DNA from: a virus
Length of the DNA: 21,182 nucleotides
Direction: 5' to 3' (one strand)
IMG/VR virus record: IMGVR_UViG_3300046465_000220
Location: 1-21,182 of that record
Positions 2,814-18,192 of this stretch are shown piece after piece. Position numbers and translations under genes: made by a program. The notes beneath the pieces were generated by a model. It was not told the DNA's origin, did not search any database, and saw only the letters and a list, made by a program, of their open reading frames with translations. Position 1 is the first letter of the stretch, and each line of letters begins with the position of its first letter.

Positions 2814-2815
2814 CT

Positions 2816-3268
2816 ATGTGGTATAGCCAAATATCAAAAGATATTAGTAAAATACCTGAGGCGTTAGACTATTATAACGATCAGTTATTACAGGCTAAAA
2901 AAGAAATCCGTATATTCGGAAGTCTTGAGAAGGCCGCGGCAGAAATGCCCGGCCTTGTCGAACAACGTTTTAATCAGTTACAAGAACTTGAAGCAATATT
3001 AGAATATCTTAACATCGAATTACGTAGATTACGTAGTACGTTTTTTAAGAAGTATCTTGAAAATTATCAACGAGCATTGTCAAGTCGTGATGTAGAAAAG
3101 TATGTTGACGGTGAAGCAGATGTAGTTGATATGGAAAAGATCATTAATGAATTTGCACTAATGCGTAACAAATGGTTAGGTATTACTAAAGGCTTAGATC
3201 AGAAGCAATGGCAAATTACTAACATTGTTAAGTTACGTGTAGCAGGTATGGAAGACGCTACAATATGA
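2816..3268 (+). CDS. Probable UvsY-like recombination mediator
   Basis: UvsY loads UvsX onto gp32-coated single strands. The 150-aa product, using ATG 2816 rather than an upstream TTG at 2804 that lies inside the previous gene, is almost entirely helical and has the size of UvsY (T4: 137 aa). Its last 65 residues follow the layout I recall for phage UvsY proteins: an R-rich helix, then DVEKYVDGEADV, a long helix, and a final helix with QKQWQITNIVKLR. The N-terminal half is not clearly similar. The location just after uvsX and a small gene supports the role. The stop overlaps the next ATG (ATGA, 3265-3268). It could instead be an unrelated coiled-coil protein; a profile search against UvsY would settle it. 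Confidence 0.6.
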   Translation: MWYSQISKDISKIPEALDYYNDQLLQAKKEIRIFGSLEKAAAEMPGLVEQRFNQLQELEAILEYLNIELRRLRSTFFKKYLENYQRALSSRDVEKYVDGEADVVDMEKIINEFALMRNKWLGITKGLDQKQWQITNIVKLRVAGMEDATI

Positions 3269-3975
3269 AGCACTTAGATAACGGTTGGTGGGTACCTGAT
3301 AACGAAATAAAAATTACAAGTCATGTTGCTGATAACGAAGATCAAAATAACCCAACATACGAAGAACGTGTTCGTAGCAAAATTTTAGAAAATATTAAAG
3401 AATTCAAAACATTTATTGATGTAGGTGCAAACATTGGTATATGGTCGTATCCATTTAAAGACAAATTTAAAAAAGTTATTAGTTACGAACCAAGTCCACG
3501 TAATTTAGAATGCTTGTATAAAAATATGCAAGGCGAAGGTGATATACGTGAATATGGTCTTGGTAACGAAAACACAGAAGCAGAATTTGTAGACAGTGAT
3601 GATAACTGTGGTAATGCACACATTGTAAATAAAAAGAAAAAACATTCATATACTATTAGAGTAAAAAAATTAGATGACGAAAATTTAGAGTCATGTAGTT
3701 TAATAAAAATTGATGTGCAAGGCTATGAATGGCCTGTAATACAAGGCGCAATGAAAACAATAGAAAAGTTTAGACCGTGGGTAGTGTTTGAACCTAATCA
3801 AGATGTAAATGAAATGATTTCTTATTTCCATAATTTAAGATACCATCCTATCTTAGTAAAAAGTAAAACTTGTTACATCTTTGCTCCAGAGGAAACTATT
3901 GAAGAAGATATTGTAGGTCTTAATGCATATCAACAAAAAATTGATATCATTAGAGAACTATATCATGAGCATTAA
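3265..3975 (+). CDS. FkbM-family SAM methyltransferase
   Basis: This is a class I S-adenosylmethionine methyltransferase of the FkbM type, a family that commonly O-methylates sugars or polyketides. The 236-aa product has the SAM-binding glycine motif FIDVGANIGIW at residues 50-60, the acidic end of strand 2 at YEPSPRN (74-80), and the family-typical KIDVQGYE at 148-155, followed by FEPNQD. It opens the accessory island: it starts by an ATGA overlap with the UvsY-like gene and ends inside the start of the ATP-grasp gene. Its substrate cannot be read from the sequence. The surrounding glycosyltransferases make a sugar acceptor the most reasonable guess. Confidence 0.88.
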   Translation: MKHLDNGWWVPDNEIKITSHVADNEDQNNPTYEERVRSKILENIKEFKTFIDVGANIGIWSYPFKDKFKKVISYEPSPRNLECLYKNMQGEGDIREYGLGNENTEAEFVDSDDNCGNAHIVNKKKKHSYTIRVKKLDDENLESCSLIKIDVQGYEWPVIQGAMKTIEKFRPWVVFEPNQDVNEMISYFHNLRYHPILVKSKTCYIFAPEETIEEDIVGLNAYQQKIDIIRELYHEH

Positions 3976-4750
3976 GCACGAAGCAACTCACTGGCATAAA
4001 AAGAAGTTAGGTACTTGGCCTAACATAGATAATCCAAAAACATTCAACGAAAAAATTGCTTGGTTAAAAATTTACGATCAAGACAAAGATCAAATTACTT
4101 GTTGTGATAAATTAGCAGTCAAAGATTTTATTTCTAAAGACTTTGGCAATGATTTAATTATACCTAACACAACAACATACCCTATGGTTATTAAAGCAAA
4201 CAACGGCTCAGGTGGTGTGCGTTTTGCTAATAACAAACAAGAAGAATTAGAAGCAGAAGAATTTTGTAAAGCAAAAGCATCTAAGCCTTACGGAAAAGGC
4301 AAAGGCGAATGGGCATATAGACTTATTACACCTGGCGTAGTTAAAGAAGTTAAATTAGAAGGCACAGGCGTTGACTATAAATTTAATTGTGTGCATGGTG
4401 AAGTAAAATGGGTAACTATGACTTGGGATAGACATGGTGGTAAAAAGAAAGAATCTATATTAGATCCTAATGGAAAAACTACACCATTGCATTTAGTACA
4501 CACAATGAAACACGTAGAACAAGAACCATTTGATGGCTTAGAAAACTTTTTTGAAATGAAAAAGATAGCAGAAAAGATATCTGCAAGATGGAAATATATT
4601 AGAGTTGATTTATATTGGGAAGGACAGCCTAAATTAGGTGAACTTACTTTTTGGCCAGGAGGCGGTTGTTACAAAACTCCTAATAATTTAAAGTTTGGAG
4701 AAATGTTAGATATTAATTTAACAACTACCAAGGAACCAGTTTTAGCATGA
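3965..4750 (+). CDS. TupA-like ATP-grasp protein
   Basis: The product (261 aa from ATG 3965) matches the TupA-like ATP-grasp family, named after the teichuronopeptide gene tupA and frequent in polysaccharide loci. Visible landmarks are NPKTFNEK near residue 23, the CCDKLAVKDF segment, the glycine-rich KANNGSGG near 77, DYKFNCVHGEVKW near 127, RVDLYWE near 213 and GELTFWPGGG near 225. These correspond to the ATP-binding and metal-binding parts of the fold. Members are thought to ligate amino acids or peptides to glycans, or to act in capsule assembly. A longer version from a start at 3923 would run deep into the FkbM gene, so I prefer 3965. It overlaps the next gene by ATGA. Confidence 0.82.
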   Translation: MSIKHEATHWHKKKLGTWPNIDNPKTFNEKIAWLKIYDQDKDQITCCDKLAVKDFISKDFGNDLIIPNTTTYPMVIKANNGSGGVRFANNKQEELEAEEFCKAKASKPYGKGKGEWAYRLITPGVVKEVKLEGTGVDYKFNCVHGEVKWVTMTWDRHGGKKKESILDPNGKTTPLHLVHTMKHVEQEPFDGLENFFEMKKIAEKISARWKYIRVDLYWEGQPKLGELTFWPGGGCYKTPNNLKFGEMLDINLTTTKEPVLA

Positions 4751-5463
4751 CCAGATACTTTGATGAAGAATGGCCAAAGGAAGAAGAAATATTGAAAATA
4801 GGTTTAGCACAATCTAAACTACACAAAAGGGAACGTATGATTAAAGTAGGATCAGTACAATGGTTGCAACAAATGGAAGAAAACTTTGGTGGCTATCATA
4901 ACACTGTGCCACGTAACAAAGTAAGTCCACTTGCACCTAAAACAAAATTAAATCCTGCAGGTATGTCAGGAGGTGATCGTATGACCCGTCATGGATATGC
5001 AACTTACTATAGTAAACATTTAATGGACCGTACTAACATAAAAACTATTGTAGAATGTGGTATATTGAAAGGCACAGGATTAGCAATATGGAGTCAATTG
5101 TTTCCTAATGCAGATATTATTGGATTAGATATTGACGTAAGTCATACACAAAATAATTTACAATTCTTAAAAGACAAAGGAGCATTTCAACATAAGGCAC
5201 CTGAACTTTATGAGTACGATCAATTTGCAGATAACCAAGAAAAAATTAACGAAATTCTAAAAGGTAGAACAATAGACATTGCAATTGATGATGGACATCA
5301 TAGTGATAGTAGTATTACAAATACATTAGATACACTTATGCCGCACTTGTCAAAACAGTTTGTATATTTTATTGAAGACAATAGAACTGTGCAACCTTTA
5401 CTAACAGAGTATAAATGTAAATTGTTTAATTACAAAAAACTAACGGTATTAGAAAATGAATGA
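4747..5463 (+). CDS. Class I methyltransferase, cephalosporin-hydroxylase/macrocin-type
   Basis: The 238-aa protein has an N-terminal stretch of about 95 residues and then a Rossmann methyltransferase core. The core has strand 1 with IVECGILKGTG at 101-111, strand 2 ending in GLDID at 126-130, the motif AIDDGHHSDSS at 179-189, and YFIEDN at 207-212. The DDGHH block is typical of methyltransferases of the macrocin O-methyltransferase and CmcI type, where the acidic residues and His bind a metal ion and the substrate hydroxyls. It probably O-methylates a sugar. It begins at an ATGA overlap and its 3' end overlaps the next glycosyltransferase by eight bases, so the genes are translationally coupled. 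Confidence 0.78.
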   Translation: MTRYFDEEWPKEEEILKIGLAQSKLHKRERMIKVGSVQWLQQMEENFGGYHNTVPRNKVSPLAPKTKLNPAGMSGGDRMTRHGYATYYSKHLMDRTNIKTIVECGILKGTGLAIWSQLFPNADIIGLDIDVSHTQNNLQFLKDKGAFQHKAPELYEYDQFADNQEKINEILKGRTIDIAIDDGHHSDSSITNTLDTLMPHLSKQFVYFIEDNRTVQPLLTEYKCKLFNYKKLTVLENE

Positions 5464-6157
5464 TATATTAGTAATAACTGCCGCAAATAAAAAATTTAAG
5501 AATATGTGTGATGTATTAGTACGTTCACTTGTTGATCTAAGACAAAAATATCATGTGTATGATTTAGGTGAATTAGGATATGGCGAACCTTTTGTTGGTG
5601 AAGTATACGAAGACGCAGGCAGAAAAATTCCAAGTAAACCTTTTATGGTCAAAGATGCTCTCAGCAAAGTTAATGCAGGAGAGTATGTAGTTTGGATGGA
5701 CGCTGATACAATCCTTTGGCAAAGTTTGCATGGTATTCAAGATAGAGGTAGTTATGATATCGGTGTAACTGTAAGAGGTGTAAAGTTTTTTAATGATCAA
5801 CCTATTAATGCAGGTGTAATGTTCTTTAGAAAAACAGAATCAACATTAAAATTTGTAGACATATGGTGTCAACGTATGAATAAGATAGACGGTACAAAAC
5901 AAGGAAGAAGTGATCAAAGAGAAATGAATTATTTTCTTAGAGGTAACTTGCCTACAAATTGGACCAACGAAATTGTAACAATACAAAACACACGATTTAA
6001 ATTATTTGATTGTAAAATTTATAATAATTGGCGTTTTAAGAAACCACAACTACATGCAAAAATTACACATTATAAAAGTTCTTATAGACACAACTGGCCT
6101 AAGAGAACTATTGATCGTGGACCAAAACAAGAACCTCGTTTTACTGACCTTGTTTAA
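5456..6157 (+). CDS. GT-A-fold glycosyltransferase (DAD motif)
   Basis: The 233-aa protein looks like a compact nucleotide-sugar glycosyltransferase of the GT-A fold. An N-terminal strand-helix unit (ILVITAANKKF) is followed by KPFMVKDALSKV and then VVWMDADTILW, whose D82-A-D84 is the metal-binding DxD motif. Downstream, PINAGVMFFRK (about residues 115-125) and SDQREMNYFLR are typical of GT8-like and related phage enzymes, where the acceptor-side Asp sits in the DQ segment. It has no signal peptide or membrane segment, so it acts in the cytoplasm. Donor and acceptor are unknown. It is one of three GT-A enzymes in the island that are clearly not recent copies of each other. Confidence 0.82.
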   Translation: MNDILVITAANKKFKNMCDVLVRSLVDLRQKYHVYDLGELGYGEPFVGEVYEDAGRKIPSKPFMVKDALSKVNAGEYVVWMDADTILWQSLHGIQDRGSYDIGVTVRGVKFFNDQPINAGVMFFRKTESTLKFVDIWCQRMNKIDGTKQGRSDQREMNYFLRGNLPTNWTNEIVTIQNTRFKLFDCKIYNNWRFKKPQLHAKITHYKSSYRHNWPKRTIDRGPKQEPRFTDLV

Positions 6158-6165
6158 ATACTTGT

Positions 6166-6912
6166 ATGAAACAGCAACTTTTAGATCATATTGAAAAGAA
6201 TTTTTCAAACACATACGAACTACAACAAAAGTATCGTAGTCACCCAAGTTATAGTTTATTAACTATTGACAACCTTGTTCCAAACGAACTTGTAAAAGCA
6301 ATGGCTAAAGAGTTGGAAGAAGTTCCACTTGAAGACTGTAAGCATTTTACAAGAGCAGGTTCATGTATGTATGAATATAATAACGTTGATAAGACGCCTG
6401 TACAAGATGCAGTTATACATGCATTACACAGTGGAAAGTTTATCAAATGGTTACAAGACGTTACTGACACAGTTGATCTAATACCTGATCCTCATCTTAT
6501 AGGTGCAGGATATTGTAAGTCATTAACAGGTGATAGTTTAAAAGTACACAGCGATTTCAATTGGAATGAACAACTTAGATTACACCGCATGGTAAGTTTA
6601 GTAATCTATCTTAATGAAGATTGGGATCAAGATTGGGGTGGACAGTTACAGTTTTATGATAGAAAAAGAGAAACTGTACATAGCAAAGTTCCTGTAGGTG
6701 CAGGTAATGCCGTTATATGGAGTTATGATAACTTTGCATTTCACGGTTACCCTGAGCCAATGACAAACCCAGAAGGTACAAGTAGAAAAGCATTGCGTTT
6801 GTTCTATTATGTTAGTAACGCAGAGCATGACTCTAAACATCCTCCACACAGAAGTTTGTATTGGTTTGATGACAAAGAGAAAGTAGCATACGACAAACCA
6901 TGGACCAAATAA
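6166..6912 (+). CDS. 2OG-Fe(II) oxygenase, prolyl-hydroxylase type
   Basis: This is a 248-aa 2-oxoglutarate/iron dioxygenase of the family that includes prolyl 4-hydroxylases. The iron triad is present: H128-S-D130 in KVHSDFNWN, and the distal H193 in AFHGYPEP. R207 in SRKALRLFYY would hold 2-oxoglutarate. Between them, VSLVIYLNEDW and WGGQLQFYD form the expected core strands. Such enzymes hydroxylate protein prolines, small molecules or sugars. It starts eight bases after the preceding stop and overlaps the next gene, another dioxygenase-fold protein, by 13 bases. The substrate is not deducible; both oxygenases may act on the same island product. Confidence 0.88.
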   Translation: MKQQLLDHIEKNFSNTYELQQKYRSHPSYSLLTIDNLVPNELVKAMAKELEEVPLEDCKHFTRAGSCMYEYNNVDKTPVQDAVIHALHSGKFIKWLQDVTDTVDLIPDPHLIGAGYCKSLTGDSLKVHSDFNWNEQLRLHRMVSLVIYLNEDWDQDWGGQLQFYDRKRETVHSKVPVGAGNAVIWSYDNFAFHGYPEPMTNPEGTSRKALRLFYYVSNAEHDSKHPPHRSLYWFDDKEKVAYDKPWTK

Positions 6913-7418
6913 CATTAGATATACCAGAACTTAATTACAAAAAACTTCTTTATGATGATAAAGATAACGTAAGTGATCAAGGCAGAGCAACTGCATTTGA
7001 ATCACAAAATAAAAAATATCATCTTGCAGGTTATACAAAAGACAACACACAGTACAAACAAGCATTTCCAGATAATGAAGATTTTATTAATTTTGGTAAG
7101 TCGTTATTTGACAGATGTACTGTCGCAGTAATGCAACAAGCACCAGGACAAGTATTACCAGAACACGTTGATACGTTTTATATGATATCAAAAAACTACG
7201 GAGTTGATCCTGACGAATGTTGTCGTATTAATATATTTTTAGAAGACTGGCAGAGTGGACATTATTTTGAAATAAACAATACACCTATCACTAAATGGAA
7301 ACGTGGTGATGCAATTATCATTCAAAAAGATGAGCCGCATTTAAGTGCTAATAGCGGAATGAGACCTAAGTACACTATGCAAGTAACTGGAGTAAAGAAT
7401 GAATTTAAGAGGCGCTAA
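6900..7418 (+). CDS. Second 2OG-Fe(II)/cupin-type oxygenase
   Basis: The 172-aa protein has a double-stranded beta-helix layout with an HxD...H iron site: H89-V-D91 in PEHVDTFYM, and H147 in DEPHLSANSG. A nearby Arg (R155, in MRPKYTMQVTG) is a candidate 2-oxoglutarate anchor. RINIFLEDWQSGHYFE and KWKRGDAIII match the strand patterns of phage and aspartyl/asparaginyl hydroxylase-like oxygenases. It is shorter than its upstream neighbour and not an obvious duplicate of it. The start overlaps the upstream oxygenase and its 3' end overlaps the next gene by 20 bases, so the trio is made as a coupled unit. Exact family assignment is uncertain. Confidence 0.75.
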   Translation: MDQITLDIPELNYKKLLYDDKDNVSDQGRATAFESQNKKYHLAGYTKDNTQYKQAFPDNEDFINFGKSLFDRCTVAVMQQAPGQVLPEHVDTFYMISKNYGVDPDECCRINIFLEDWQSGHYFEINNTPITKWKRGDAIIIQKDEPHLSANSGMRPKYTMQVTGVKNEFKRR

Positions 7419-8274
7419 ACCTGTAACAGACAACAAAATTAAAAAGTTTATTACAGAATTAAATCCTGTAAATGATTTGTATAACGAAGAATTACCATCT
7501 ACGTTTATTAAAACATTTATGGATTGGATTAGTGCAAGTGGTAATAATAAACTAATAGGACTTGATTTATTTCCAAGCCAAAAATTAGTTTGCGGTACTG
7601 TACAAGCCTTTGATCATTTTTATTTTAGACACAAAAACAAACGTTTTAGATTTCACAAAGGTGAATTTATGTATCACAGTGCATGTTTGAAACATGGGTG
7701 TGATTGGGAATACATCGAAGACGAACCACTTGAACACGACGATGTGTTAATCACAAGTGTACCTTTCAGCGACTATGGTAGACAGCATGTTGACCTTGAA
7801 TATTACTTAGATATTTGTAATAGTTTAGAAATTCCTGTGCTACTTGACTTTGCATATTATCCTTGTACAAAGAATATTAACGTAGATTTAGCACAATGGA
7901 AATGCGTAGAAACTATTACGTTTAGTATTAGTAAAGCATTTTATGGCGCAGAATTTTTACGTGTAGGTGTACGTTGTGAACGTGTAGATACAGATGACGG
8001 CATTGATGTGTTTAATTCTGTAGAAATGAATAACAGAATTGACATAAGCATTGCAAATAGTTTAATACAAAACTTTCCAGTAGATTGGAACTGGCAACAG
8101 TATGCAACTGCTTACAATCAAGCAATAGAAGATAAGAACTTACTACCCACAGACTGCATTATGTTTGGCATCGGAGACGACAAATGGAAAGATTGGAACC
8201 GAGGCAGTGACGTCAATAGAGTGTGTATTAGCGAACTAATAGGCGAAATAGTCAATACCAGTTCTGGCACTTAA
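7399..8274 (+). CDS. PLP-dependent aminotransferase-fold protein
   Basis: The 291-aa product carries signature residues of fold-type I pyridoxal phosphate enzymes. LLDFAYYP places D150, which contacts the pyridine nitrogen, and a following Tyr. SISKAFYGAEFLRVG places K179 as the Schiff-base lysine with an Arg/Gly-rich continuation, as in class I/II aminotransferases. The chain is roughly 100 residues shorter than usual, with reduced N-terminal and C-terminal small-domain parts, so activity may be specialised. The next gene is an amidinotransferase. An aminotransferase supplying an amine to an amidinotransferase is the logic of streptomycin-type guanidino sugar synthesis. No close family assignment can be made by eye. 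Confidence 0.75.
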   Translation: MNLRGAKPVTDNKIKKFITELNPVNDLYNEELPSTFIKTFMDWISASGNNKLIGLDLFPSQKLVCGTVQAFDHFYFRHKNKRFRFHKGEFMYHSACLKHGCDWEYIEDEPLEHDDVLITSVPFSDYGRQHVDLEYYLDICNSLEIPVLLDFAYYPCTKNINVDLAQWKCVETITFSISKAFYGAEFLRVGVRCERVDTDDGIDVFNSVEMNNRIDISIANSLIQNFPVDWNWQQYATAYNQAIEDKNLLPTDCIMFGIGDDKWKDWNRGSDVNRVCISELIGEIVNTSSGT

Positions 8275-8288
8275 TCTCATATCAGCCA

Positions 8289-8296
8289 TTTAAATA
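8289..8296 (+). promoter_or_regulatory. Possible late-type promoter (TTTAAATA)
   Basis: The 46-base gap before the amidinotransferase gene is one of the few true gaps in the island. It contains TTTAAATA, one base from the T4 late consensus TATAAATA, at a distance that would start transcription near 8303, just ahead of the AAGGAG at 8309-8314. Such words are frequent by chance in AT-rich DNA, so support is weak. Confidence 0.3.
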
Positions 8297-8308
8297 TGAA
8301 TACTAACC

Positions 8309-8314
8309 AAGGAG
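8309..8314 (+). promoter_or_regulatory. Strong Shine-Dalgarno of amidinotransferase
   Basis: AAGGAG sits six bases before ATG 8321. The segment through the start codon is almost identical to the one before uvsX, suggesting independent and strong translation, unlike the coupled genes around it. Confidence 0.7.
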
Positions 8315-8320
8315 ATTAAT

Positions 8321-9382
8321 ATGACAGTAGTAAGCAGTCACAATGATTGGGATCCATTAGAAGAATGTTTTGTGGGTATCGCCGATCATGCAAGAATACC
8401 AACAGTAGATAAATCAACGCACAGTTTTGGATTTGCAGATTGCAAATATGAACACATCAAAGACTTAGAAGGACCAAGTCCTGAGTGGGTAATTGACGAA
8501 GCAAATGAGGACCTTGATGGCCTTGCCAAACTTTTAACTAACCTTGGAGTTAAAGTTAGACGTCCAGAGTCAATTGATCACAGCGTAGAATTTGGTTCTC
8601 CAGATTGGAAAACTACAGGTTGGTACACATACTGTCCACGAGATTTATTATTGCCACTTAACAATCTTATTATTGATTGTCCAGGTGCAATGAGAGCAAG
8701 ACAATACGAAACAACAGCATACAGAGAATTTTTATATGAAGCAATGGCAGGCGGTTCACAATGGATTAGTGCGCCTCGTCCAAGACTGCTTGATGAAAGT
8801 TATCAACTTGAGGACCTAAGTATTCCTACACTTGTTAACAAAGAAATTGTATTTGATGCACCCAACGTAGTAAGACTTGGTAAGGATTTAATCTATCAAG
8901 TTAGCAACAGTGGTACACTATTAGGAGGACAGTGGTTAAAAACTATCCTTGAACCTTTAGGATATAAAATTCATCTTGCTGAAAAATTTTATAGTTATTC
9001 ACACTTTGACAGTACAGTAATTCCATTACGTCCTGGACTTGTGTTGTTTAACGGAGATAGAATTAATCCTGACTGGTATCCACCTATCTTTAAAAACTGG
9101 GATAAGATTTTCTTCCCAGGTGATAAGGTGCATGACATCGGCACTAACTTGCCTAACAACGTTTCGCCATGCAGTAAATATATTGGTTTGAACTTTATGA
9201 GTGTTAATGAAAAACTTGTAATTTGTGATGAGAATCAAGAAGACCTGCGTAAAGAATTAGATAAATGGGGAATTGAAAGTATAGCATTACCTATGCGTCA
9301 AGCACGTACATTGAGTGGTGGCTTCCATTGTGTTACTTTAGATACGAAACGTAAAGGCACATTGGAAAGTTACTTTGAGTAA
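8321..9382 (+). CDS. L-arginine amidinotransferase (AGAT/StrB family)
   Basis: This 353-aa protein is a full-length amidinotransferase, which moves the amidino group of arginine to an amine (glycine in AGAT, an amino-inositol in StrB). The catalytic triad is in place: D179 in VFDAPNVVRLG, H228 in SYSHFDST, and the nucleophile C337 in GGFHCVTLD. From memory of human AGAT (D254, H303, C407) the Asp-His spacing is the same, 49 residues. The C-terminal RKGTLESYF also follows the family. It is cytosolic. The preceding gene is an aminotransferase-fold protein, and a radical SAM gene overlaps its 3' end. The acceptor is unknown: glycine would give guanidinoacetate, an amino sugar would give a guanidino sugar. 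Identification of the family is secure. Confidence 0.93.
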   Translation: MTVVSSHNDWDPLEECFVGIADHARIPTVDKSTHSFGFADCKYEHIKDLEGPSPEWVIDEANEDLDGLAKLLTNLGVKVRRPESIDHSVEFGSPDWKTTGWYTYCPRDLLLPLNNLIIDCPGAMRARQYETTAYREFLYEAMAGGSQWISAPRPRLLDESYQLEDLSIPTLVNKEIVFDAPNVVRLGKDLIYQVSNSGTLLGGQWLKTILEPLGYKIHLAEKFYSYSHFDSTVIPLRPGLVLFNGDRINPDWYPPIFKNWDKIFFPGDKVHDIGTNLPNNVSPCSKYIGLNFMSVNEKLVICDENQEDLRKELDKWGIESIALPMRQARTLSGGFHCVTLDTKRKGTLESYFE

Positions 9383-10238
9383 ACGCGGTTATCATATACC
9401 AAATCTTGAATACATGATTACGACAAGTTGTGATCTGGCGTGTCCAGGTTGCGATAGGTTTATTGATCACAACTTACCTTTCGTAGAATCATTTGAAGAC
9501 ATTATTAAGAACATGGAAGCATGGGGTAAAAGACTTGACCCAGACCATGTTACTATCATTGGTGGTGAACCTTTGTTACACCCACGCATATACGATATAC
9601 TAAAAGAAGCAAGACGCATATTTGATCATGCAGTTATAGAAGTTTATACTAACGGATTCTTATTACCTAAGCGTCCAGACATACTAAAGGTCCTTAAGAA
9701 AATAGGCAGAGCAAAAATTAGTTGTAGTTTACATAATAAAAATCCTAAGGTTAGAGAACTTATTGAAACTAATTTATGGAATGCTTTTTACAGCAAAGGC
9801 AACTGGAGTATGGTTAGTGATATTGCACACAAGCAAGATGATGTTGAAGTAGAAGTTACTGATCCTACAGAAGGTGGCTGGTATGATTATAGACAAACGA
9901 TCAACGGCAAACTAAAGCCTTGGACTGACAAAGATCCTGAAGCAAGTTATAAAGCATGTGGTGTAAACATATATCCTATAATATACAAAGGACAGTTATA
10001 CAAGTGTCCTCCTATTAGTATGGTGCGTACATACTTGAGCAAAGCAGGACAAATAGATGATGTTGATTGGAAACCATATGTAGATTACGAAGGACTTAAC
10101 ATTGATGTACAAGAAAGTGAACTTGAAGAATTTGTTAAAAACATTTTCAAACCACACAGCATTTGTGCAATGTGTCCTGCTAATCCAAAACTAAAACCAC
10201 AAGACGAAGCAGTGGTTAAGAATGTAAAATTACTATGA
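9375..10238 (+). CDS. Radical SAM protein with C-terminal auxiliary Cys set
   Basis: The 287-aa protein has the radical SAM cluster motif C19xxxC23xxC26 (SCDLACPGC) right after the first strand, then IIGGEPLLH at 61-69 for SAM binding and EVYTNGF near 89. Four further Cys (195, 211, 264, 267) form a SPASM/twitch-like auxiliary iron-sulfur site at the C-terminus. I chose the TTG at 9375 because GGAAAG (9364-9369) precedes it, and a start at ATG 9414 would leave only five residues before the first cluster Cys. It overlaps the amidinotransferase by eight bases and is followed by an ATGA junction. Relatives modify peptides, sugars or other small molecules; the substrate here is unknown. Confidence 0.88.
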   Translation: MSKRGYHIPNLEYMITTSCDLACPGCDRFIDHNLPFVESFEDIIKNMEAWGKRLDPDHVTIIGGEPLLHPRIYDILKEARRIFDHAVIEVYTNGFLLPKRPDILKVLKKIGRAKISCSLHNKNPKVRELIETNLWNAFYSKGNWSMVSDIAHKQDDVEVEVTDPTEGGWYDYRQTINGKLKPWTDKDPEASYKACGVNIYPIIYKGQLYKCPPISMVRTYLSKAGQIDDVDWKPYVDYEGLNIDVQESELEEFVKNIFKPHSICAMCPANPKLKPQDEAVVKNVKLL

Positions 10239-11389: not shown

Positions 11390-12305
11390 TAATAAAATCT
11401 TTGTTAGGTAAGTTTAATCTTCGTGCATCACCAATAATACTATTCTTAGCATCAGCATCAAGGACATTGATATCTAAATCAAAAGGGAATGTTAGTACGT
11501 TAATGTACCAACGTGTGTTTGTAAATCTTGTACAGAAGTCATGTAAGTCTTTTAGACCCATGTAGTTGTTTTTGTGTAGCACAGAATTAAATTCTAATGT
11601 GTACATATTGTCGTGAACCCAATCAATAAATTTAACAACGTCAGGCCATTTAGTTCCGCCACGTACACGTTCTCCAAGTTCACCTATACCATCAATGCTT
11701 AAGATAAAAGTTACTTTCTTATAGTGCCTTAGTTCTTCAACAACTTCATCATTAGGTATAAACGTTCCATTGGTGTTGTATATGATTTCAACATGGCTTT
11801 TGTTTTTTACTTGACGTAACAGTTTCAAATGCCTATTAGTAATTAACGGTTCGCCTCCAAGAAACAATATCTTTTCAAGCGAGTCTGGTACGTTTGTAAC
11901 GTCATCAATCTCCATTAACTTGTGTTTAGGTGCTCCGTAAATTTCTTTTTCTTTTACAATCCAACTTGTACTAAACTCTGAATTACAACCATCACAAGTT
12001 AAATTACACAAGTTGTCAAACCCAATTTCAAGAAACTTTAGTTCAACTTTATCCATTGAATATTTTTCATTAAATTCTTCACGTAAACTTTTGTGCCCTA
12101 TCTTTTCTTCATAGAAACACTTTTCACAGCCTTTAATAAATTCGCCTTTAGCACTTTGTTCACGTAGATCTTGATAGGCTGTACTATGTAATACGTTGTC
12201 AATGTCGCCATCAAATGTAGCAATAGAACGTTTGAATCTACAACAAGGATAGACTCTATTGCCACTTCTTATATTGGTGTGATTCCAAAATGCACTACAT
12301 TTCAT
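11367..12305 (-). CDS. Radical SAM protein with N-terminal twitch-like domain
   Basis: The 312-aa protein carries an N-terminal Cys set (C3, C21, C22, C60, C63) before the radical SAM core. The core has C100xxxC104xxC107 (LCNLTCDGC), LFLGGEPLI around 138-146 and IIYNTNGTF. This order fits a family I recall as N-terminal twitch-domain radical SAM proteins, found in phage and polysaccharide loci. Compared with the other radical SAM protein of the island, the auxiliary domain is on the opposite side of the core. It is the last gene of a three-gene minus-strand block; its start overlaps the preceding gene by 11 bases. Substrate unknown. Confidence 0.85.
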   Translation of the reverse strand: MKCSAFWNHTNIRSGNRVYPCCRFKRSIATFDGDIDNVLHSTAYQDLREQSAKGEFIKGCEKCFYEEKIGHKSLREEFNEKYSMDKVELKFLEIGFDNLCNLTCDGCNSEFSTSWIVKEKEIYGAPKHKLMEIDDVTNVPDSLEKILFLGGEPLITNRHLKLLRQVKNKSHVEIIYNTNGTFIPNDEVVEELRHYKKVTFILSIDGIGELGERVRGGTKWPDVVKFIDWVHDNMYTLEFNSVLHKNNYMGLKDLHDFCTRFTNTRWYINVLTFPFDLDINVLDADAKNSIIGDARRLNLPNKDFIINHLQKN

Positions 12306-12720
12306 AATATGGTATCCAGTGTTTATCCAAGTCTTTCTTTATACATTTGGTTGCTAAATCTAATACAGATGTGTAATCAATTTTGGTCTTGTCTTCATTT
12401 CTAAATGGATCAAACACAAATCTATTATCTTTATTTACTATGTCAAACTCAGTATCATGCATGTTGATAAACATAGGTATACTGGCGTCTAAGACGCATT
12501 TTAAGGGCCCTACAGTACACAAAGCATAGTCTACACGGGCAACAGCATACTCTAATGATTCAGTGGTATACACGGGCATTTTAACCACGTTTACACGTTC
12601 CAATAACCATTGTTCTATATGCTTGTCTAACACATCATCTCCTAAGGGTAACAATAATACATTGCTAAACTTATTTTGATTTGAGTTCTCGATTAGTGTT
12701 AGAACTTCTTCGTTTGTCAT
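12295..12720 (-). CDS. Hypothetical protein, 141 aa
   Basis: I do not recognise this protein. It looks alpha/beta: a first helix, a hydrophobic strand FSNVLLLPLG, then VDYALCTVGPLKCVLDASIP, where a strand-loop-helix resembles the nucleotide-sugar side of GT-B or capsule-type proteins, and a polar C-terminal helix. It has three Cys and no signal peptide. It begins with an ATGA overlap to the upstream oxygenase-like gene and overlaps the radical SAM gene downstream, so all three are translationally coupled and probably act together. A role as partner or substrate-carrier of the radical SAM enzyme is possible but unproven. Confidence 0.7.
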   Translation of the reverse strand: MTNEEVLTLIENSNQNKFSNVLLLPLGDDVLDKHIEQWLLERVNVVKMPVYTTESLEYAVARVDYALCTVGPLKCVLDASIPMFINMHDTEFDIVNKDNRFVFDPFRNEDKTKIDYTSVLDLATKCIKKDLDKHWIPYYEM

Positions 12721-13310
12721 TTTTTGATTATTTCGAGATCAAAAGTAATAATATCCAAATTAGTTTTACTCAAGTTAGGTGTAGTACTAACATCTAAATA
12801 TCCTGGAATAAAATACATCTCGCCTTCTGGCATTGGCAAATACGTTTGCCAACTATTGTATGCGTTTTTATTTTCAACTGGAATCTTACTGAAGTAATAT
12901 TCACTTACAGGATTGTCAATTACAAGTCCGCCACTTTTTGGATCGCTGGTTACAAAGTACATACCTGAATAAAAACTATTTGTGTTTTTTGTTTTAGTTA
13001 AGCAACCACCTGGCAATACTGTTTGAATGTGTGCTCTGGTGATAGCAATATGCTGTCCTTGTTTAACTTCAAATTTTTCAGTAATAGACTTAACAAAACC
13101 CTTAACATCATCACTTTCGCTGATGTGTTTGAAGGCGTTATTAGTGTGAAAGTTATCCTTGCTTTGCCAAGTATTAATATGCTGTATATTAACATTGTTG
13201 GTTTGCTTTTGGTAGTCTTCAACAACTCTACCAAATAATTTTTTGATATCTTTGTGTTTTGAAAACGTAACTCTGCTGATACTATTAACAAATAAATTCA
13301 ATGTGTCCAT
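12717..13310 (-). CDS. 2OG-Fe(II) oxygenase-like protein lacking iron ligands
   Basis: The 197-aa protein matches the layout of a phage dioxygenase family I recall as TIGR02466. It has MDTLNLFVNSISRVTF at the start, NTWQSKDNFH, then PGG...SFYSGMYFVTSDPKSGG, DNP, and MYFIPGYLDVSTTPN near the end. In that family the segments before SG and after the late P carry HxH and H. Here the aligned positions are T-x-N and V, and the 2OG-binding Arg appears to be Leu. It therefore looks like a catalytically dead or repurposed oxygenase fold. The family-like N-terminus supports ATG 13310; a TTG at 13343 is in frame but lacks a Shine-Dalgarno sequence and would abut the divergent gene. Confidence 0.7.
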   Translation of the reverse strand: MDTLNLFVNSISRVTFSKHKDIKKLFGRVVEDYQKQTNNVNIQHINTWQSKDNFHTNNAFKHISESDDVKGFVKSITEKFEVKQGQHIAITRAHIQTVLPGGCLTKTKNTNSFYSGMYFVTSDPKSGGLVIDNPVSEYYFSKIPVENKNAYNSWQTYLPMPEGEMYFIPGYLDVSTTPNLSKTNLDIITFDLEIIKK

Positions 13311-13372
13311 GTAATTACTTATTGAGCAACCAGGAATAAACAATGTTATCTGGCACTAAATTAAATACATTT
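13311..13372. promoter_or_regulatory. Divergent junction between minus block and plus genes
   Basis: Both flanking genes need a promoter from this short region because each faces antisense neighbours upstream. No clear sigma70 pair is visible. Late-promoter-like words occur on both strands: AATAAACA on plus (13335-13342) and CATAAATG on minus (13375-13368), each one base from NATAAATA. AGGA at 13332-13335 supports ATG 13343 for the plus gene. The assignments are tentative. Confidence 0.3.
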
Positions 13373-14122
13373 ATGAAGTATGTGTTAGTTACAGGTGGCT
13401 TTGATCCACTACACTCAGGTCATTTGGCGTACTTTAAAGCGGCAAAGAAACTTGGTGACAAACTGGTTGTTGGACTAAACAGTGATGAGTGGTTGACAGC
13501 AAAGAAGGGTCAACCTTTCATGCCATTTGCAGAACGCCTTGCTATCATACGTGAACTTGAATGTGTTGACAACGTATTAAGTTTTGATGACAGCGATGGT
13601 ACAGCATGTGGGGCAATCTTCAAACTGATGGCTACTACTGTAGGAGAGTATGTATTTGCTAACGGTGGTGACAGGGTTGATGGTAACGTACCCGAGTATG
13701 ATACGTATGGTGACAAAATAGAATTTGTATACGGAGTAGGTGGCACAGACAAGATAAATTCAAGTAGTTGGATTTTAGAGAATTACAAATACCCAAAGAC
13801 GAAACGTAGTTGGGGTTGGTATAGAGTGCTTGATGAACAGCAAGGTTATAAGGTTAAAGAACTTGTAATAGAGCCTGGCAATAGTTTGTCAATGCAACGA
13901 CATAAACATCGCAGTGAGAACTGGTATGTGTTGAAAGGTAAGTGTGTTATTGAAACAGAATGGGAAAGCAGATTAGAGTCAAGAGAATTAGATGCTAACC
14001 GTTCATACACAATAGATAAAAATGTTTGGCACAAAGGAATCAACAATACAGAAGAACACTGTCATATATTAGAAGTACAGTTTGGCGACAAGTGTATTGA
14101 AGAAGACATAGAAAGAAGGTAA
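13343..14122 (+). CDS. Nucleotidyltransferase-cupin fusion
   Basis: Two domains are fused in 259 residues. Residues 12-145 form a cytidylyltransferase-like nucleotidyltransferase: VTGGFDPLHSGH carries the HxGH nucleotide-binding motif (24-27), with GLNSDEW, FAERLAIIREL, FANGGDR and a modified late motif INSSSWI. This type makes CDP- or ADP-activated polyols and sugars. Residues 157-255 form a type II phosphomannose isomerase-like cupin with SMQRHKHRSENWYVLKG; likely metal ligands are H187, H189, E192 and H230. The fusion suggests isomerisation or binding of a sugar phosphate coupled to its activation. AGGA at 13332 favours ATG 13343; ATG 13373 (MKYVLVTGG) is an alternative start without a Shine-Dalgarno sequence. 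Confidence 0.88.
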   Translation: MLSGTKLNTFMKYVLVTGGFDPLHSGHLAYFKAAKKLGDKLVVGLNSDEWLTAKKGQPFMPFAERLAIIRELECVDNVLSFDDSDGTACGAIFKLMATTVGEYVFANGGDRVDGNVPEYDTYGDKIEFVYGVGGTDKINSSSWILENYKYPKTKRSWGWYRVLDEQQGYKVKELVIEPGNSLSMQRHKHRSENWYVLKGKCVIETEWESRLESRELDANRSYTIDKNVWHKGINNTEEHCHILEVQFGDKCIEEDIERR

Positions 14123-14123
14123 A

Positions 14124-14810
14124 ATGAAAATTTTTGTAGGTTACGATACAAGAGAAGATATTGCTTATCAAGTTTGTAAGCACAGCATTGAATCACAATG
14201 CCCAACAGCAGAAGTGATTCCGTTGAAACAAAACGAATTAAGAAATGATAAGTTGTATTGGAGAGGCGAGGATAAACTTGCAAGTACAGAATTTACGTTT
14301 ACACGTTTTCTTATTCCACACTTAATGAATTACGAAGGCTGGGCATTGTTTATTGACAGCGACATTGTGTTTACAGAGAATGTAAAAAATTTATTTGATC
14401 TTGCAGACGACAAGTATGCTGTTATGTGTGCCCAACATGATTACACACCTAAGCCTGGAACAAAGATGGACGGACAAGTACAAACACAATATCCACGTAA
14501 GAACTGGTCAAGTGTTGTGTTATGGAACTGCGGACATCCAAGTAACCAAGCAGTAACAATTGACAGTGTAAACAATCCTAACTTCGATGGAAAATACTTT
14601 CACAGATTTAGTTGGCTCAAGGACGAGGAAGTAGGACAAATCAGTCACGAATGGAACTGGCTTGTTGATTGGTACCAAGAACCTGAAGACGGAACCCCAA
14701 AGGCACTGCACTATACAGAAGGCGGTCCTTGGTTTGAGAATTACAGACATTGTTCATACCACGGTGTTTGGAAAAAGTTTTTAACAGACATGATGTATAC
14801 AAATGTATAA
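14124..14810 (+). CDS. GT8-like GT-A glycosyltransferase (DSD motif)
   Basis: The 228-aa protein starts with MKIFVGYDTREDIAYQV, typical of phage GT8-like enzymes, and has FTFTRFLIPHL followed by ALFIDSDIVF, whose D78-S-D80 is the metal-binding DxD motif. NWSSVVLWNCGHPSN and the late ALHYTEGGPWFENYR complete the usual order of conserved blocks, with the His of HYTEGGP as a likely third metal ligand. No membrane segment is present. It follows the nucleotidyltransferase-cupin gene by one base and is preceded by AGAAGG (14114-14119), so it may use the donor that enzyme helps to make. Its 3' end overlaps the next gene by eight bases. Confidence 0.88.
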   Translation: MKIFVGYDTREDIAYQVCKHSIESQCPTAEVIPLKQNELRNDKLYWRGEDKLASTEFTFTRFLIPHLMNYEGWALFIDSDIVFTENVKNLFDLADDKYAVMCAQHDYTPKPGTKMDGQVQTQYPRKNWSSVVLWNCGHPSNQAVTIDSVNNPNFDGKYFHRFSWLKDEEVGQISHEWNWLVDWYQEPEDGTPKALHYTEGGPWFENYRHCSYHGVWKKFLTDMMYTNV

Positions 14811-15627
14811 AAAATACCCCGAATGTTTTGTAGCAGATAGTAGTGATGCTATTTCTAAACTATTAACAAATTGTTTTGAAAAAACTATACCTACAAGTTT
14901 AAAAGAATTACAAAAAGATACAGATCATCCACATACTCCTGTTATAGTAAGAGGTCTTACTGAGCGTAAAGTTATGAAAGTGGCTACAGAACAAAACAGA
15001 ACTTTCTATTATATTGACACTGGGTATATGGGCAACTTACAGAAACGCAAAGACTGGCATAGAGTTGTAAAGAATGATGTACAGCATTTTAGTCCAAGGT
15101 GGGACTTGCCAAAAGATAGATTTATTAGATTGCCAGGAGCAATTGACAAGTTAAGATTTAGAGGTTGGAAAAATCATAATGGTCCTATTCTTGTTGTAAC
15201 GCCATCAGAAAAACCTTGTATGTATTATGGTATAACCAGAGATCAATGGTTAACTGAAACTATGGCAGAATTAAAAAAACATACAGACAGAGAAATTATT
15301 GTACGTGATAAAGTAGGAAGAGTATTACGTGTAGGTGATAATAGTGTGCCTGCTCAAATTGATCGTGAAAAAATTTATGCACTTGTAACTTACAATAGTA
15401 TTGCGGCAACAGAAGCAATTAGTTCAGGAATACCTGCTATTGCTACAGCACCAGGCGCCGCTGATGCATTGTGTACAAAAAATATTTCAGACATTGAAAA
15501 TCCATATAGACCAGATCCTGACAAAGTTGTTGCTTGGCAAAACTGGTTAGCATACTGTAATTTTAACACAAGGGAGTTAGAAGACGGAACGGCATTAGCA
15601 ATTATAGAGGAGTACGGATTGTGTTAA
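14803..15627 (+). CDS. Capsule-type (KpsS-like) protein, copy A
   Basis: The 274-aa protein belongs with two downstream island proteins that share a GT-B-like C-terminal pattern. Here it reads VTYNSIAATEAISSGIPAIATAPGAA, then NP, PD, WLAYCNFNTRELEDG. This resembles the nucleotide-binding half of capsule polysaccharide (KpsS/CDP-glycerophosphotransferase-like) enzymes, where a Ser/Asn-Ser loop and a G-I/V-P turn bind the donor. The segment equivalent to the RxHP motif of the other copies is IIVRDKVGR, so the His-Pro is lost in this copy. No signal peptide is seen. Start and stop overlap the neighbours. Function is probably transfer of a phosphosugar or sugar, but the degenerate motif leaves activity open. 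Confidence 0.68.
   Translation: MYKKYPECFVADSSDAISKLLTNCFEKTIPTSLKELQKDTDHPHTPVIVRGLTERKVMKVATEQNRTFYYIDTGYMGNLQKRKDWHRVVKNDVQHFSPRWDLPKDRFIRLPGAIDKLRFRGWKNHNGPILVVTPSEKPCMYYGITRDQWLTETMAELKKHTDREIIVRDKVGRVLRVGDNSVPAQIDREKIYALVTYNSIAATEAISSGIPAIATAPGAADALCTKNISDIENPYRPDPDKVVAWQNWLAYCNFNTRELEDGTALAIIEEYGLC
15608..15612 (+). promoter_or_regulatory. Shine-Dalgarno fixing a GTG start
   Basis: AGGAG lies eight bases before GTG 15621, inside the end of the upstream gene. It supports the GTG over the in-frame ATG 21 bases further on. Confidence 0.55.
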
Positions 15628-16544
15628 CAGTAGCATCATACATGAAAGTAATTCCGCCAGGAAATTCAAATCCGGAAAAGCCAGCACTGCTTAAAAATTT
15701 TATTGAAGGTGTAAATCTTATTGGTGACCGAGGACTAATTATTAACACATATCATCCTATGGACACAGACGTTGCAGTTATACAAGGCTTTGTTCATGCT
15801 AACAGTAAAAGCACACCACACTTAAAATTACGTAGACAAGTTTATGATAATCAATTAAGACGTGGCAAACGTTGTATTATTGTTGACAGTAATTTATTTC
15901 TTGCGTTTGATAAAAACAACAGCAAAACTTATTTGCGTTATAGTTACGATGGTATCTTTGCTAACACAGGTGAATATTGTAACGGTCCAGAGAATGTTGA
16001 TAAACTGCGTTGGCAGAAAATGAAAAATGCATTAAACATTGATGTAAAACCTTGGCGTATACAAAATGAAGGACATATTTTAATTGCTTGTCAAAGAAAT
16101 GGCGGTTGGAGTATGCAAGGACAAAATGTACTGCAATGGTTACGTGCAACTGTAGAAAAGATTAGACAAAACATTGACGCACCTATTGTTGTGCGTTTTC
16201 ATCCAGGCGACAAACACAAAGATACATACGAGCCACAGATAAGAGATTTGAACGTTACTGTTAGTAGAACCAAAAGTATATTCGAAGACTTGAAAGGTGC
16301 AAGACTGTGTGTTGGACATAACAGTAGTCCAACAATCATTGCCGCTATTGAAGGTGTTCCTATCTTCTTAACAGATGCAGGACGTAGTCAAGCAAAAGAT
16401 GTCGCTAATTATAATTTCAAAAATCTTGCAACACCAGATGAATTTGATAGAGGTCCATGGCTTGAAAAACTTGCACAATGTCACTGGACACTACAAGAAC
16501 TAAAGGACGGTAGTTGTTGGAGACACATGAGGCAGTACACATGA
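15621..16544 (+). CDS. Capsule-type (KpsS-like) protein, copy B
   Basis: The 307-aa protein has an N-terminal Rossmann-like half with TDVAVIQGF near residue 50, and a C-terminal half with PIVVRFHPGD (RxHP motif), CVGHNSSPTIIAAIEGVPIF and WTLQELKDG. The same blocks recur in the third copy (17362-18192) and, weakened, in the first. Together they indicate a capsule-polysaccharide-type GT-B protein. The start is GTG with AGGAG upstream, overlapping the preceding stop by seven bases; the end forms an ATGA junction with the next glycosyltransferase. It is probably a glycosyl- or glycerophosphotransferase acting in the cytoplasm; donor unknown. Confidence 0.7.
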   Translation: MLTVASYMKVIPPGNSNPEKPALLKNFIEGVNLIGDRGLIINTYHPMDTDVAVIQGFVHANSKSTPHLKLRRQVYDNQLRRGKRCIIVDSNLFLAFDKNNSKTYLRYSYDGIFANTGEYCNGPENVDKLRWQKMKNALNIDVKPWRIQNEGHILIACQRNGGWSMQGQNVLQWLRATVEKIRQNIDAPIVVRFHPGDKHKDTYEPQIRDLNVTVSRTKSIFEDLKGARLCVGHNSSPTIIAAIEGVPIFLTDAGRSQAKDVANYNFKNLATPDEFDRGPWLEKLAQCHWTLQELKDGSCWRHMRQYT

Positions 16545-17365
16545 AGGTACTTGCACTAACAACATTTCATCAAGCAGGATTAGAACAGTACGGTCAACGT
16601 ATGATCGATACGTTTGCACAAAACGTAGACGAACAGATTGATCTAATTGTGTACACAGAAGATTGTACACCTACTAATCCTCAACCTACAAGAATACAGA
16701 TTGTAGATGCTAAAGCAGTGTTACCAAAGTTAAATGCGTTTAAGGCAAAGTGGAAAGACGAACCTAAAGCAAACGGTATATGTCCACCAGAGATAAAAGC
16801 AAGACGTCTACGTGATTGGCACAAGAAGTTTAAGTGGGACGCTATTAGATTTGCAAACAAAGTGTATGCAGTATATGACGCATGTACCAAAACGGAATAC
16901 GATTTAGTAATATGGATTGACGGAGATACAGTTTGTCATAGTCCTATTACACAAGATAGACTTGTAAGTTTCTTTCCAGAACAAAACTGGTTAGCATATT
17001 TAGGACGTGGTAGAAAATGGCCTGAGTGTGGATTTTATGCATTGTATATCAAACAACAAGGTGCTATTGATTTTCTTAAAGAGTTTGAACGTGTCTATGA
17101 AGATGCAGACAACGGCATTTTCAAAATGGAAGAATGGCATGACAGTTATGTATTTGATGAAGTGTTAAAGAAGATTAGATTACAACACCCTAACATCACA
17201 GACCTTAGTGGACATCTTGTTAAAGGTGAAGGACATCCTTTGATTAACACAGAACTTGGTGCATACTTTGATCATCTCAAAGGTGCTCGTAAAGAAGTAG
17301 GCAAAAGTAAACTTCAAGATTTATTTAGAAAGCGTCACGAAGAATACTGGAAAGATGCAAGGTGA
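16541..17365 (+). CDS. GT-A-fold glycosyltransferase (DGD motif)
   Basis: From ATG 16541, which overlaps the upstream stop as ATGA, the product is 274 aa. It opens with MKVLALTTFHQAGLEQYGQR, then a helical segment FKWDAIRFANKVYAVYDA preceding LVIWIDGDTVCHSP, whose D127-G-D129 is the metal-binding motif. CGFYALYIKQQGAIDFL and the acidic EEWHDSYVFDEVL segment follow, typical of compact nucleotide-sugar transferases. It is sandwiched between two capsule-type paralogues, suggesting stepwise assembly of one glycan. The longer frame from a TTG at 16514 lies inside the upstream gene and is not supported. Its stop overlaps the GTG start of the next gene. Confidence 0.82.
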   Translation: MKVLALTTFHQAGLEQYGQRMIDTFAQNVDEQIDLIVYTEDCTPTNPQPTRIQIVDAKAVLPKLNAFKAKWKDEPKANGICPPEIKARRLRDWHKKFKWDAIRFANKVYAVYDACTKTEYDLVIWIDGDTVCHSPITQDRLVSFFPEQNWLAYLGRGRKWPECGFYALYIKQQGAIDFLKEFERVYEDADNGIFKMEEWHDSYVFDEVLKKIRLQHPNITDLSGHLVKGEGHPLINTELGAYFDHLKGARKEVGKSKLQDLFRKRHEEYWKDAR

Positions 17366-18192
17366 AGTTTAGTCTGTTTACACACAATGGTGCATTAAAT
17401 TCAAAGCCTGTCTTTGAAGCATTCGCACAAGGTGTAAGCACATTAGGACACGAAGTTACATATAACAACTTAGATGCAGACGTTGCCGTTATATGGAGTG
17501 TGTTATGGCATGGCAGAATGTCAGCAAACAAAAACGTTTGGGATCATTTTAAAAAACAAAATAAAAAAGTTATTGTACTTGAAGTAGGAGCATTGTTTAG
17601 AGGCACTACTTGGAAGGTTGGTATTGATGGTATAAACGGAGATGCTGTATTTCCAGATGGTAATAACAAAAGTGATCGTGCTGAACAGTTAGGACTAAAA
17701 CTTAAACCTTGGAACACTGACGGCAGTAAGATTGTAATTTGTACTCAGCATGACAAGAGCCAACAATGGGAAGGCATGCCACCAATACAACAGTTCGTGT
17801 CTGACATGATACGAGGCGTTCAGATGTGGACGGACAGAGAAATAGTTGTTCGACCTCACCCACGTTGCAAAATTAAAATACCAGGCATAGAAGTACAAAC
17901 ACCAAAACAAATACCAGGCACCTATGATGATTTTGACTTACAGTTTGAAGATGTATATGCTTTAATAAATTGGTCAAGCAATCCTGCAACACAGGCAGTC
18001 ATGAATGGTATTCCTGTATTCACGGGTCAAAGCAGTCTTGCATGGGACATGAGCATGAAAAGTTTGACCAACATTAACAATCCGTTAATGCCTGATAGAG
18101 AACAATGGCTTAACAATTTGGCATACACGGAATGGAGTGTGCCGGAAATATCTCAAGGAACCCCAATAAAACACTTGACTTCTTTACTATAA
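17362..18192 (+). CDS. Capsule-type (KpsS-like) protein, copy C
   Basis: The 276-aa protein shares with copy B the blocks DADVAVIW, LKPWN, EIVVRPHPR (RxHP), ALINWSSNPATQAVMNGIPVF and WSVPEISQGTPIKHL. The N-terminal half has a Rossmann-like start MKFSLFTHNG and a V-rich strand KVIVLEVGALFRG. It is best described as a capsule-polysaccharide-type GT-B protein. The start is GTG overlapping the previous TGA, with GGAAAG at 17349-17354 upstream. It is the last gene of the island. The last codons overlap the -35 element of the promoter for the next operon, so the island and the following replication genes share these bases. Confidence 0.7.
   Translation: MKFSLFTHNGALNSKPVFEAFAQGVSTLGHEVTYNNLDADVAVIWSVLWHGRMSANKNVWDHFKKQNKKVIVLEVGALFRGTTWKVGIDGINGDAVFPDGNNKSDRAEQLGLKLKPWNTDGSKIVICTQHDKSQQWEGMPPIQQFVSDMIRGVQMWTDREIVVRPHPRCKIKIPGIEVQTPKQIPGTYDDFDLQFEDVYALINWSSNPATQAVMNGIPVFTGQSSLAWDMSMKSLTNINNPLMPDREQWLNNLAYTEWSVPEISQGTPIKHLTSLL

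Follow-up and report, generated by a model that had tools for sequence, protein, structure and literature searches.

So far, the chemistry islands of large marine phages have been treated mainly one gene at a time, as auxiliary metabolic or lipopolysaccharide (LPS) genes. T4-like cyanophages carry large LPS gene clusters, and whether these are working has been left open (Sullivan et al. 2010, PMC3037559). In pelagimyophages, cassettes of glycosyltransferase and radical S-adenosylmethionine (SAM) genes are found in the tail-fibre region, for which modification of the O-chain was favoured (Zaragoza-Solas et al., PMC7029224). Additionally, the Campylobacter phages CP220 and CPt10 hold an interchangeable module of radical SAM and amidinotransferase genes, to which no function was assigned (Timms et al. 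2010, PMC2853527). Here, we describe an island of related composition in the virus record IMGVR_UViG_3300046465_000220, which was analyzed over its whole length of 21,182 bp (the window). The island consists of 19 open reading frames (ORFs), named A to S, which fill positions 3265-18192 between the gene for a UvsY-like mediator and T, the ORF located between S and the gene for a UvsW-like helicase.

Gene-order comparison with relatives indicates that the island is made of three parts, namely a lineage-wide block N-S, a relocating nine-gene cassette E-M (6166-13343), and an exchangeable left segment A-D. Islands of a similar kind have been found in pelagimyophages, cyanophages, and Campylobacter phages; the F-G-H core of the cassette and its two locations appear undescribed in the open-licence literature searched. 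The CP220/CPt10 module resembles E-M in that several radical SAM and glycosyltransferase-like genes accompany an amidinotransferase and in its block-wise exchange between close phages. However, the identity to H is only 27-29%, and no homologue of G or F was detected there. In the pelagimyophage region, including that of Pelagibacter phage Mosig (EXVC030M), cassettes with glycosyltransferase and radical SAM genes adjoin tail fibres, as E-M does in some relatives, and Mosig carries a homologue of G (hhalign 99%) in a chemistry island adjoining these fibres; this weak match is the only one of G to cultured phages. Contrary to E-M, no amidinotransferase is annotated in that stretch, and the window copy is located between uvsY and uvsW instead. 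The Mosig island (L223) extends over about 16 kb beside the tail fibres and contains nitroreductase, carbamoyltransferase, MoaA-like, aminotransferase, and hydroxylase genes. Analogous to the island, cyanophage S-SCSM2R brings together amidinotransferase, radical SAM, 2-oxoglutarate (2OG) oxygenase, and glycosyltransferase genes, albeit in another gene order and at another site. The "AHBA synthase" of S-SCSM2R was ruled out as a homologue of G (hhalign probability 0.4%).

The genes of the island follow one another with junctions of -53 to +46 bp, and all of them lie on the plus strand except K, L, and M. The features of the window are as follows (PLP, pyridoxal 5'-phosphate):

450-1436: gp32 (PHROGs match)
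1493-2578, plus strand: UvsX-like recombinase, in the flank (phrog_97, E=7e-68; 68% to Phosso)
2804-3268, plus strand: UvsY-like mediator, left border (phrog_231, E=2e-16)
3265-3975, plus strand: A, FkbM methyltransferase of the variable left segment (PF05050, E=4e-19)
3923-4750, plus strand: B, TupA-like ATP-grasp protein of the variable left segment (PF14305, E=3e-21)
4747-5463, plus strand: C, class I methyltransferase of the variable left segment (PF13578, Methyltransf_24, E=5e-4, below the cut-off; phrog_21658, E=1e-16)
5456-6157, plus strand: D, GT-A-type glycosyltransferase of the variable left segment (PF03407, E=4e-8; PF05637, E=4e-7; DxD motif)
6166-6912, plus strand: E, 2OG-Fe(II) oxygenase, P4H-like, first gene of E-M (PF13640, E=1e-14)
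6900-7418, plus strand: F, 2OG-type oxygenase of the E-M core (metal motif and a weak AtsK match, E=0.003)
7399-8274, plus strand: G, short PLP enzyme of the E-M core with an aminotransferase class I/II fold (PF00155 in the family; model)
8321-9382, plus strand: H, StrB1-like L-arginine amidinotransferase of the E-M core (profile match to 1BWD, StrB1)
9375-10238, plus strand: I, MoaA/PqqE-like radical SAM protein of the E-M core with auxiliary cysteines (PF04055, E=1e-15)
10235-11389, plus strand: J, probable GT-B glycosyltransferase of the E-M core (motif and weak fold matches)
11367-12305, minus strand: K, N-terminal-twitch radical SAM enzyme of the E-M core (NF033640, 212 bits; cut-off 170)
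12295-12720, minus strand: L, 141-aa protein of the E-M cassette, with a conserved position in the gene order and no family or PDB match
12717-13343, minus strand: M, 2OG-oxygenase fold without metal ligands, last gene of E-M (phrog_81, E=2e-10)
13343-14122 (start possibly 13373), plus strand: N, nucleotidyltransferase-cupin fusion, first gene of N-S (PF01467, E=2e-16; PF01050, E=8e-21)
14124-14810, plus strand: O, GT8-like glycosyltransferase of the N-S block (PF01501, E=4e-7; phrog_28018, E=2e-46)
14803-15627, plus strand: P, P/Q/S family, probable GT-B (aligns with Q and S)
15621-16544, plus strand: Q, P/Q/S family, probable GT-B (aligns with P and S)
16514-17365, plus strand: R, probable GT-A glycosyltransferase (WIDGD, i.e., DxD, motif; no Pfam match)
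17362-18192, plus strand: S, P/Q/S family, probable GT-B (aligns with P and Q)
18229-19482, plus strand: T, ORF before UvsW, right border (also in the empty sites L278 and L305)
19479-20939, plus strand: UvsW-like helicase, right border (phrog_16, E=7e-82)

A search with H revealed 66 viral loci, which include near-identical or syntenic copies of the island, and the island recurs in dozens of marine contigs. The pairwise dN/dS values range from 0.01 to 0.41 for every testable island gene, and those of most of E-M are similar to those of uvsX and gp32; the values are indicative, as some distant pairs show saturated dS. In view of these copies and ratios, the island is not a chance arrangement. 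In the clade of the window, the genes between uvsY and uvsW keep the order E-F-G-H-I-J-K-L-M-N-O-P-Q-R-S-T, with R inverted in L021-L025. A-D are replaced in many relatives of this clade, and only 8 fetched loci contain A. The uvsY loci were counted among 29 newly fetched ones with at least 9 kb downstream, with earlier-fetched loci excluded and near-duplicates kept. P/Q/S are present in all 29 of these, O in 26/29, N in 25/29, and T in 21/29, while G plus H are found in only 2/29. Furthermore, empty sites exist in L278, in which uvsY-T-uvsW takes up 1.3 kb, and in L305. The uvsY-uvsW interval is an insertion hot spot in this marine T4-like jumbo-phage lineage.

Since most uvsY-uvsW intervals have N-S but no E-M, E-M occurs without N-S elsewhere, and A-D are replaced, the genes are partly separately distributed, and the "complete biosynthetic route" proposed in an earlier sequence-only reading of this DNA is not supported. 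The separate distribution applies between the two or three blocks; within E-M, by contrast, co-occurrence is strong. The biosynthetic and glycan-modifying function suggested in that reading is retained, as the gene content fits it and the genes are intact. In L234, a peroxiredoxin-like gene (phrog_2281, 3386-3961) occupies the junction of uvsY and N, where the window has A-M. T precedes uvsW in most intervals examined, including both empty sites.

The second home of E-M is often located beside tail genes. In the contigs G002, G008, and G009, whose UvsX is 81-87% identical to that of the window, H lies 38-47 kb from uvsX, and the uvsY-uvsW interval contains N, O, and P/Q/S, with neither G nor H. 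The genes around E-M at this second site are tail-fibre, baseplate-wedge, and baseplate-connector genes. A NodU-type carbamoyltransferase precedes E-M in G002 and G008, and a tryptophan halogenase follows it in L030 and L031; G009 contains E-I only, and no tail gene was detected nearby. Among 38 loci of the carbamoyltransferase site with at least 8 kb downstream, the cassette is present in 6 and absent in 32. The non-redundant G loci (n=44) comprise 9 at uvsY-uvsW, 14 near tail genes, and 21 that are unplaced, where the tail-gene probes derive from one clade and miss the tail genes of distant phages. No tail-gene match was obtained at any of the 78 uvsY loci. In the 356-kb contig G013, the gene G is found near tail-type proteins (L215). 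The G tree does not reject that the uvsY placement arose once (p-AU 0.67).

In the tail locus of L030 and L031, three tandem phrog_4205 paralogues and one phrog_8954 protein stand between the baseplate genes and the carbamoyltransferase, an arrangement that is common to cassette-bearing and cassette-free relatives. Collagen-like Gly-X-Y repeats, a possible sign of hydroxylysine glycosylation, were not found in the nearby fibres.

Clustering of G at 60% yielded 17 groups, of which 13 have F nearby, 11 have H, 10 have J, and 9 have K, and glycosyltransferase-like genes recur next to G and H. Phage H is paired with G, the short PLP enzyme, and with the 2OG-type oxygenase F, in contrast to its chromosomal relatives, which are without both except in L072-L074. 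The chromosomal StrB1-like loci that were retrieved show no G partner, and only L072-L074, three small contigs of metagenome-assembled genomes (MAGs) that are possibly phage, carry the cassette set or parts of it. For this reason, the module looks phage-specific within the data searched. In a Chloroflexi MAG contig (L075), an amidinotransferase 51% identical to H is accompanied by carbamoyltransferase-, halogenase-, and radical SAM-like genes and resembles the tail-locus set of the phages. Additionally, in Burkholderia and Pseudomonas (L077, L080, and L082), a StrB1-like amidinotransferase is closely followed by a phage-like carbamoyltransferase.

The domain searches confirm most of the enzyme kinds named in the sequence-only reading. 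These include the two methyltransferases (FkbM in A, Methyltransf_24 in C), the ATP-grasp protein B, the amidinotransferase H, the radical SAM pair I and K, and the PLP class I fold of G. The island between UvsY and UvsW is as dense as stated; however, it comprises 19 ORFs instead of 18 genes. It was also described as free of DNA-metabolism genes, and no such family was matched in Pfam, PHROGs, or NCBIfam (the last for E-N only). Instead of two oxygenases, there are three 2OG-fold proteins, of which E and F keep their metal ligands and M has lost them. Of the five or more glycosyltransferases, D and O are assigned by Pfam, whereas R, P, Q, S, and J display only motifs or weak fold matches.

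The catalytic residues of the E-M enzymes are largely preserved. Full-length alignments of H were obtained with StrB1 (L-arginine:inosamine-phosphate amidinotransferase, 1BWD) and AGAT, with profile scores of 390 and 273 bits, respectively. It shows the fold, the Asp/His/Cys residues, and the HxD motif of pentein amidinotransferases of this kind. Its catalytic residues D108, R127, H228, D230, H336, and C337, the same as in these enzymes, are invariant among 14 homologues, while the residue matching Asp179 of StrB1 is either Asp or Glu. In G, D150, Y153, and the PLP lysine K179 are invariant, and PF00155 is matched by 4/12 family members (best E=1e-6). The AlphaFold model of G (pLDDT 87) retrieves HisC, CobD, and GntC in Foldseek with E of about 1e-11 to 1e-9. 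As modeled, G has the PLP class I/II fold, and since these three enzymes are similarly close, it may be an aminotransferase, a lyase, or a cyclase. Both I and K keep the CxxxCxxC cluster motif of the radical SAM superfamily; C19, C23, C26, C195, C211, C264, and C267 are invariant in I, and C100, C104, C107, and five auxiliary cysteines in K. The HxD...H metal triad is kept in both E (H128, D130, H193, together with R207, all invariant) and F (H89, D91, H147, invariant in 11 homologues). In M, the metal-binding histidines are gone from the window protein and are kept in one homologue, L044. It is under strong purifying selection (dN/dS 0.06-0.07) despite the lost ligands, and it may be a pseudoenzyme that acts in structure or regulation.

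For J, a conserved TEK...PF..G motif is present, and its model (pLDDT 85) is matched best by GT-B enzymes in Foldseek (SenB, probability 0.99; TM 0.45-0.52), none of which falls below E=1e-3. By sequence, J matches no family and no solved structure convincingly, and the same applies to P/Q/S, which also have no PDB match of note. No stops or frameshifts occur in the genes of the window. The idea that most of the genes are inactive is excluded by the conserved residues and the purifying selection.

While the blocks, their relocation, the active-site residues, the selection, and the tail neighbourhood are read from sequence, the chemistry and its target are deduced from the enzyme families. H would transfer the amidine group of arginine to an amine, resulting in a guanidine, and this amine may be supplied or rearranged by G. 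E and F would carry out hydroxylation, I and K may perform radical chemistry on carbon, and J may transfer a sugar. In the adjoining block, N may activate a sugar or alditol phosphate, and O-S could construct a glycan from the nucleotide-activated donor. The decorated product, on tail-fibre or virion proteins or on the host envelope, could then affect receptor binding or superinfection. We therefore propose, with confidence evenly divided for and against, that the island makes and attaches a hydroxylated, guanidine-bearing glycan decoration on tail fibres, other virion proteins, or the host surface. The decoration of virions or of the host surface, two of the outcomes considered in the sequence-only reading, is favoured since the same cassette often sits among tail-fibre genes in relatives, which suggests a decoration rather than a free drug-like product. 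In 15 contigs, all fragments, neither an initiating phosphoglycosyl transferase (PF02397) nor a flippase (PF01943) was found, and no island protein has a transmembrane segment; these absences slightly favour the decoration of proteins or the use of borrowed host carriers.

Several observations weigh against a glycan decoration linked to the tail. The cassette of the window itself is not beside tail-fibre genes but at uvsY-uvsW, and in distant phages, G-H are near replication genes, such as those for DNA polymerase (L218) and ribonucleotide reductase (L206). The glycosyltransferase roles of J and P/Q/S are based on motifs and weak fold matches. For class I/II PLP enzymes, the usual substrates are amino acids rather than sugars, which makes the glycan link of G uncertain. 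Additionally, substrate and product are predictions from the enzyme families, and the contigs are fragments.

Within the proposed decoration, the cassette may remodel an envelope glycan of the host for superinfection exclusion and leave the virion as it is, a sub-case that we regard as possible, if on the unlikely side. Such a role has been argued for the glycosyltransferases of the pelagimyophage tail-fibre hypervariable region (PMC7029224), and a receptor-modifying cassette that travels with tail fibres would make sense. However, as PF02397 and PF01943 are absent from the 15 contigs and the island encodes no membrane protein, host machinery would have to be borrowed. The more specific proposal that a mobile cassette decorates the phage's own tail fibres with a guanidine-bearing hydroxylated glycan and relocates between tail and recombination loci is tentative, and we consider it unlikely as a whole.

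PLP enzymes, radical SAM enzymes, and glycosyltransferases are also employed in known DNA hypermodification pathways. The island enzymes share these kinds, the window genes sit in a recombination cassette, and some distant copies lie near replication genes, all of which would suit a hypermodification of phage DNA against restriction, e.g., to a guanidinylated, glycosylated base. However, this is distinctly improbable: a thymidylate-synthase-family gene, needed for hydroxymethylated bases, is present in only 1 of the 15 contig fragments, which weakens the case, the presence and absence among close relatives would be unusual for a genome-wide base modification, and the association with the tail locus is left unexplained.

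The tight overlaps and the common strand of most genes may be taken to mean that the 18-19 genes together encode one complete pathway to a small diffusible product. Amidinotransferases, radical SAM, 2OG, and PLP enzymes are common in natural-product clusters, and the Streptomyces relatives of H include S. griseus and S. bluensis, which are aminoglycoside producers. Against this, the three blocks occur independently of each other, the island proteins are without transmembrane segments, and no scaffold synthase, carrier protein, precursor of a ribosomally synthesized and post-translationally modified peptide (RiPP), transporter, or resistance gene was matched in the family searches described above. 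The diffusible product of the sequence-only reading thus lacks the synthase, the carrier or precursor peptide, and the export or resistance gene of a natural-product cluster, and a single pathway of this kind is very improbable.

There is only a slim chance that H makes a guanidino metabolite, e.g., guanidinoacetate, for creatine-like energy buffering. Although viral genes of the creatine pathway have been proposed from ocean viromes (PMC11360552), H is nearer to StrB1 than to glycine amidinotransferase by the profile scores given above, its consistent partners are G, F, and glycosyltransferase-like genes, and a creatine-type kinase was not seen. Finally, functionless stuffer DNA, as raised by Sullivan et al. 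for the cyanophage LPS clusters (PMC3037559), would fit the loss of metal ligands in M but deserves almost no credence in view of the low dN/dS of all tested genes, the uninterrupted reading frames, and the invariant catalytic residues.

The closest cultured relatives by protein are the T4-like jumbo phages Phosso and Atu_ph07, along with PA5oct-type phages for UvsW. The identity to cultured jumbo-phage relatives is 62-68% for UvsX and 52-56% for UvsW, and at the DNA level, megablast with the entire window found no match among cultured phages. The uvsX-uvsY-uvsW stretch of both Phosso and Cassandra is compact and carries no island-type genes. T has no match in PHROGs, Pfam, or cultured phages, and no relationship to the Phosso gene adjoining uvsW was detectable. 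The exact T4 late-promoter motif TATAAATA is not present in the window. In G013, the uvsX match (20342-21397) carries one in-frame TGA, which may reflect an intron, recoding, or an assembly error.

A defined core of a 2OG oxygenase, a PLP enzyme, a StrB1-like amidinotransferase, radical SAM enzymes, and glycosyltransferase-like proteins recurs as a unit in many phages. For the E-M unit, empty sites, a second location at tail fibres, and presence or absence among close relatives are documented. A vague "sugar island" thereby becomes a testable nine-gene unit, for which tail fibres and host glycans are the obvious sites of the product. If tail fibres are indeed decorated, this would represent a phage-encoded chemical diversification of a receptor-binding protein.

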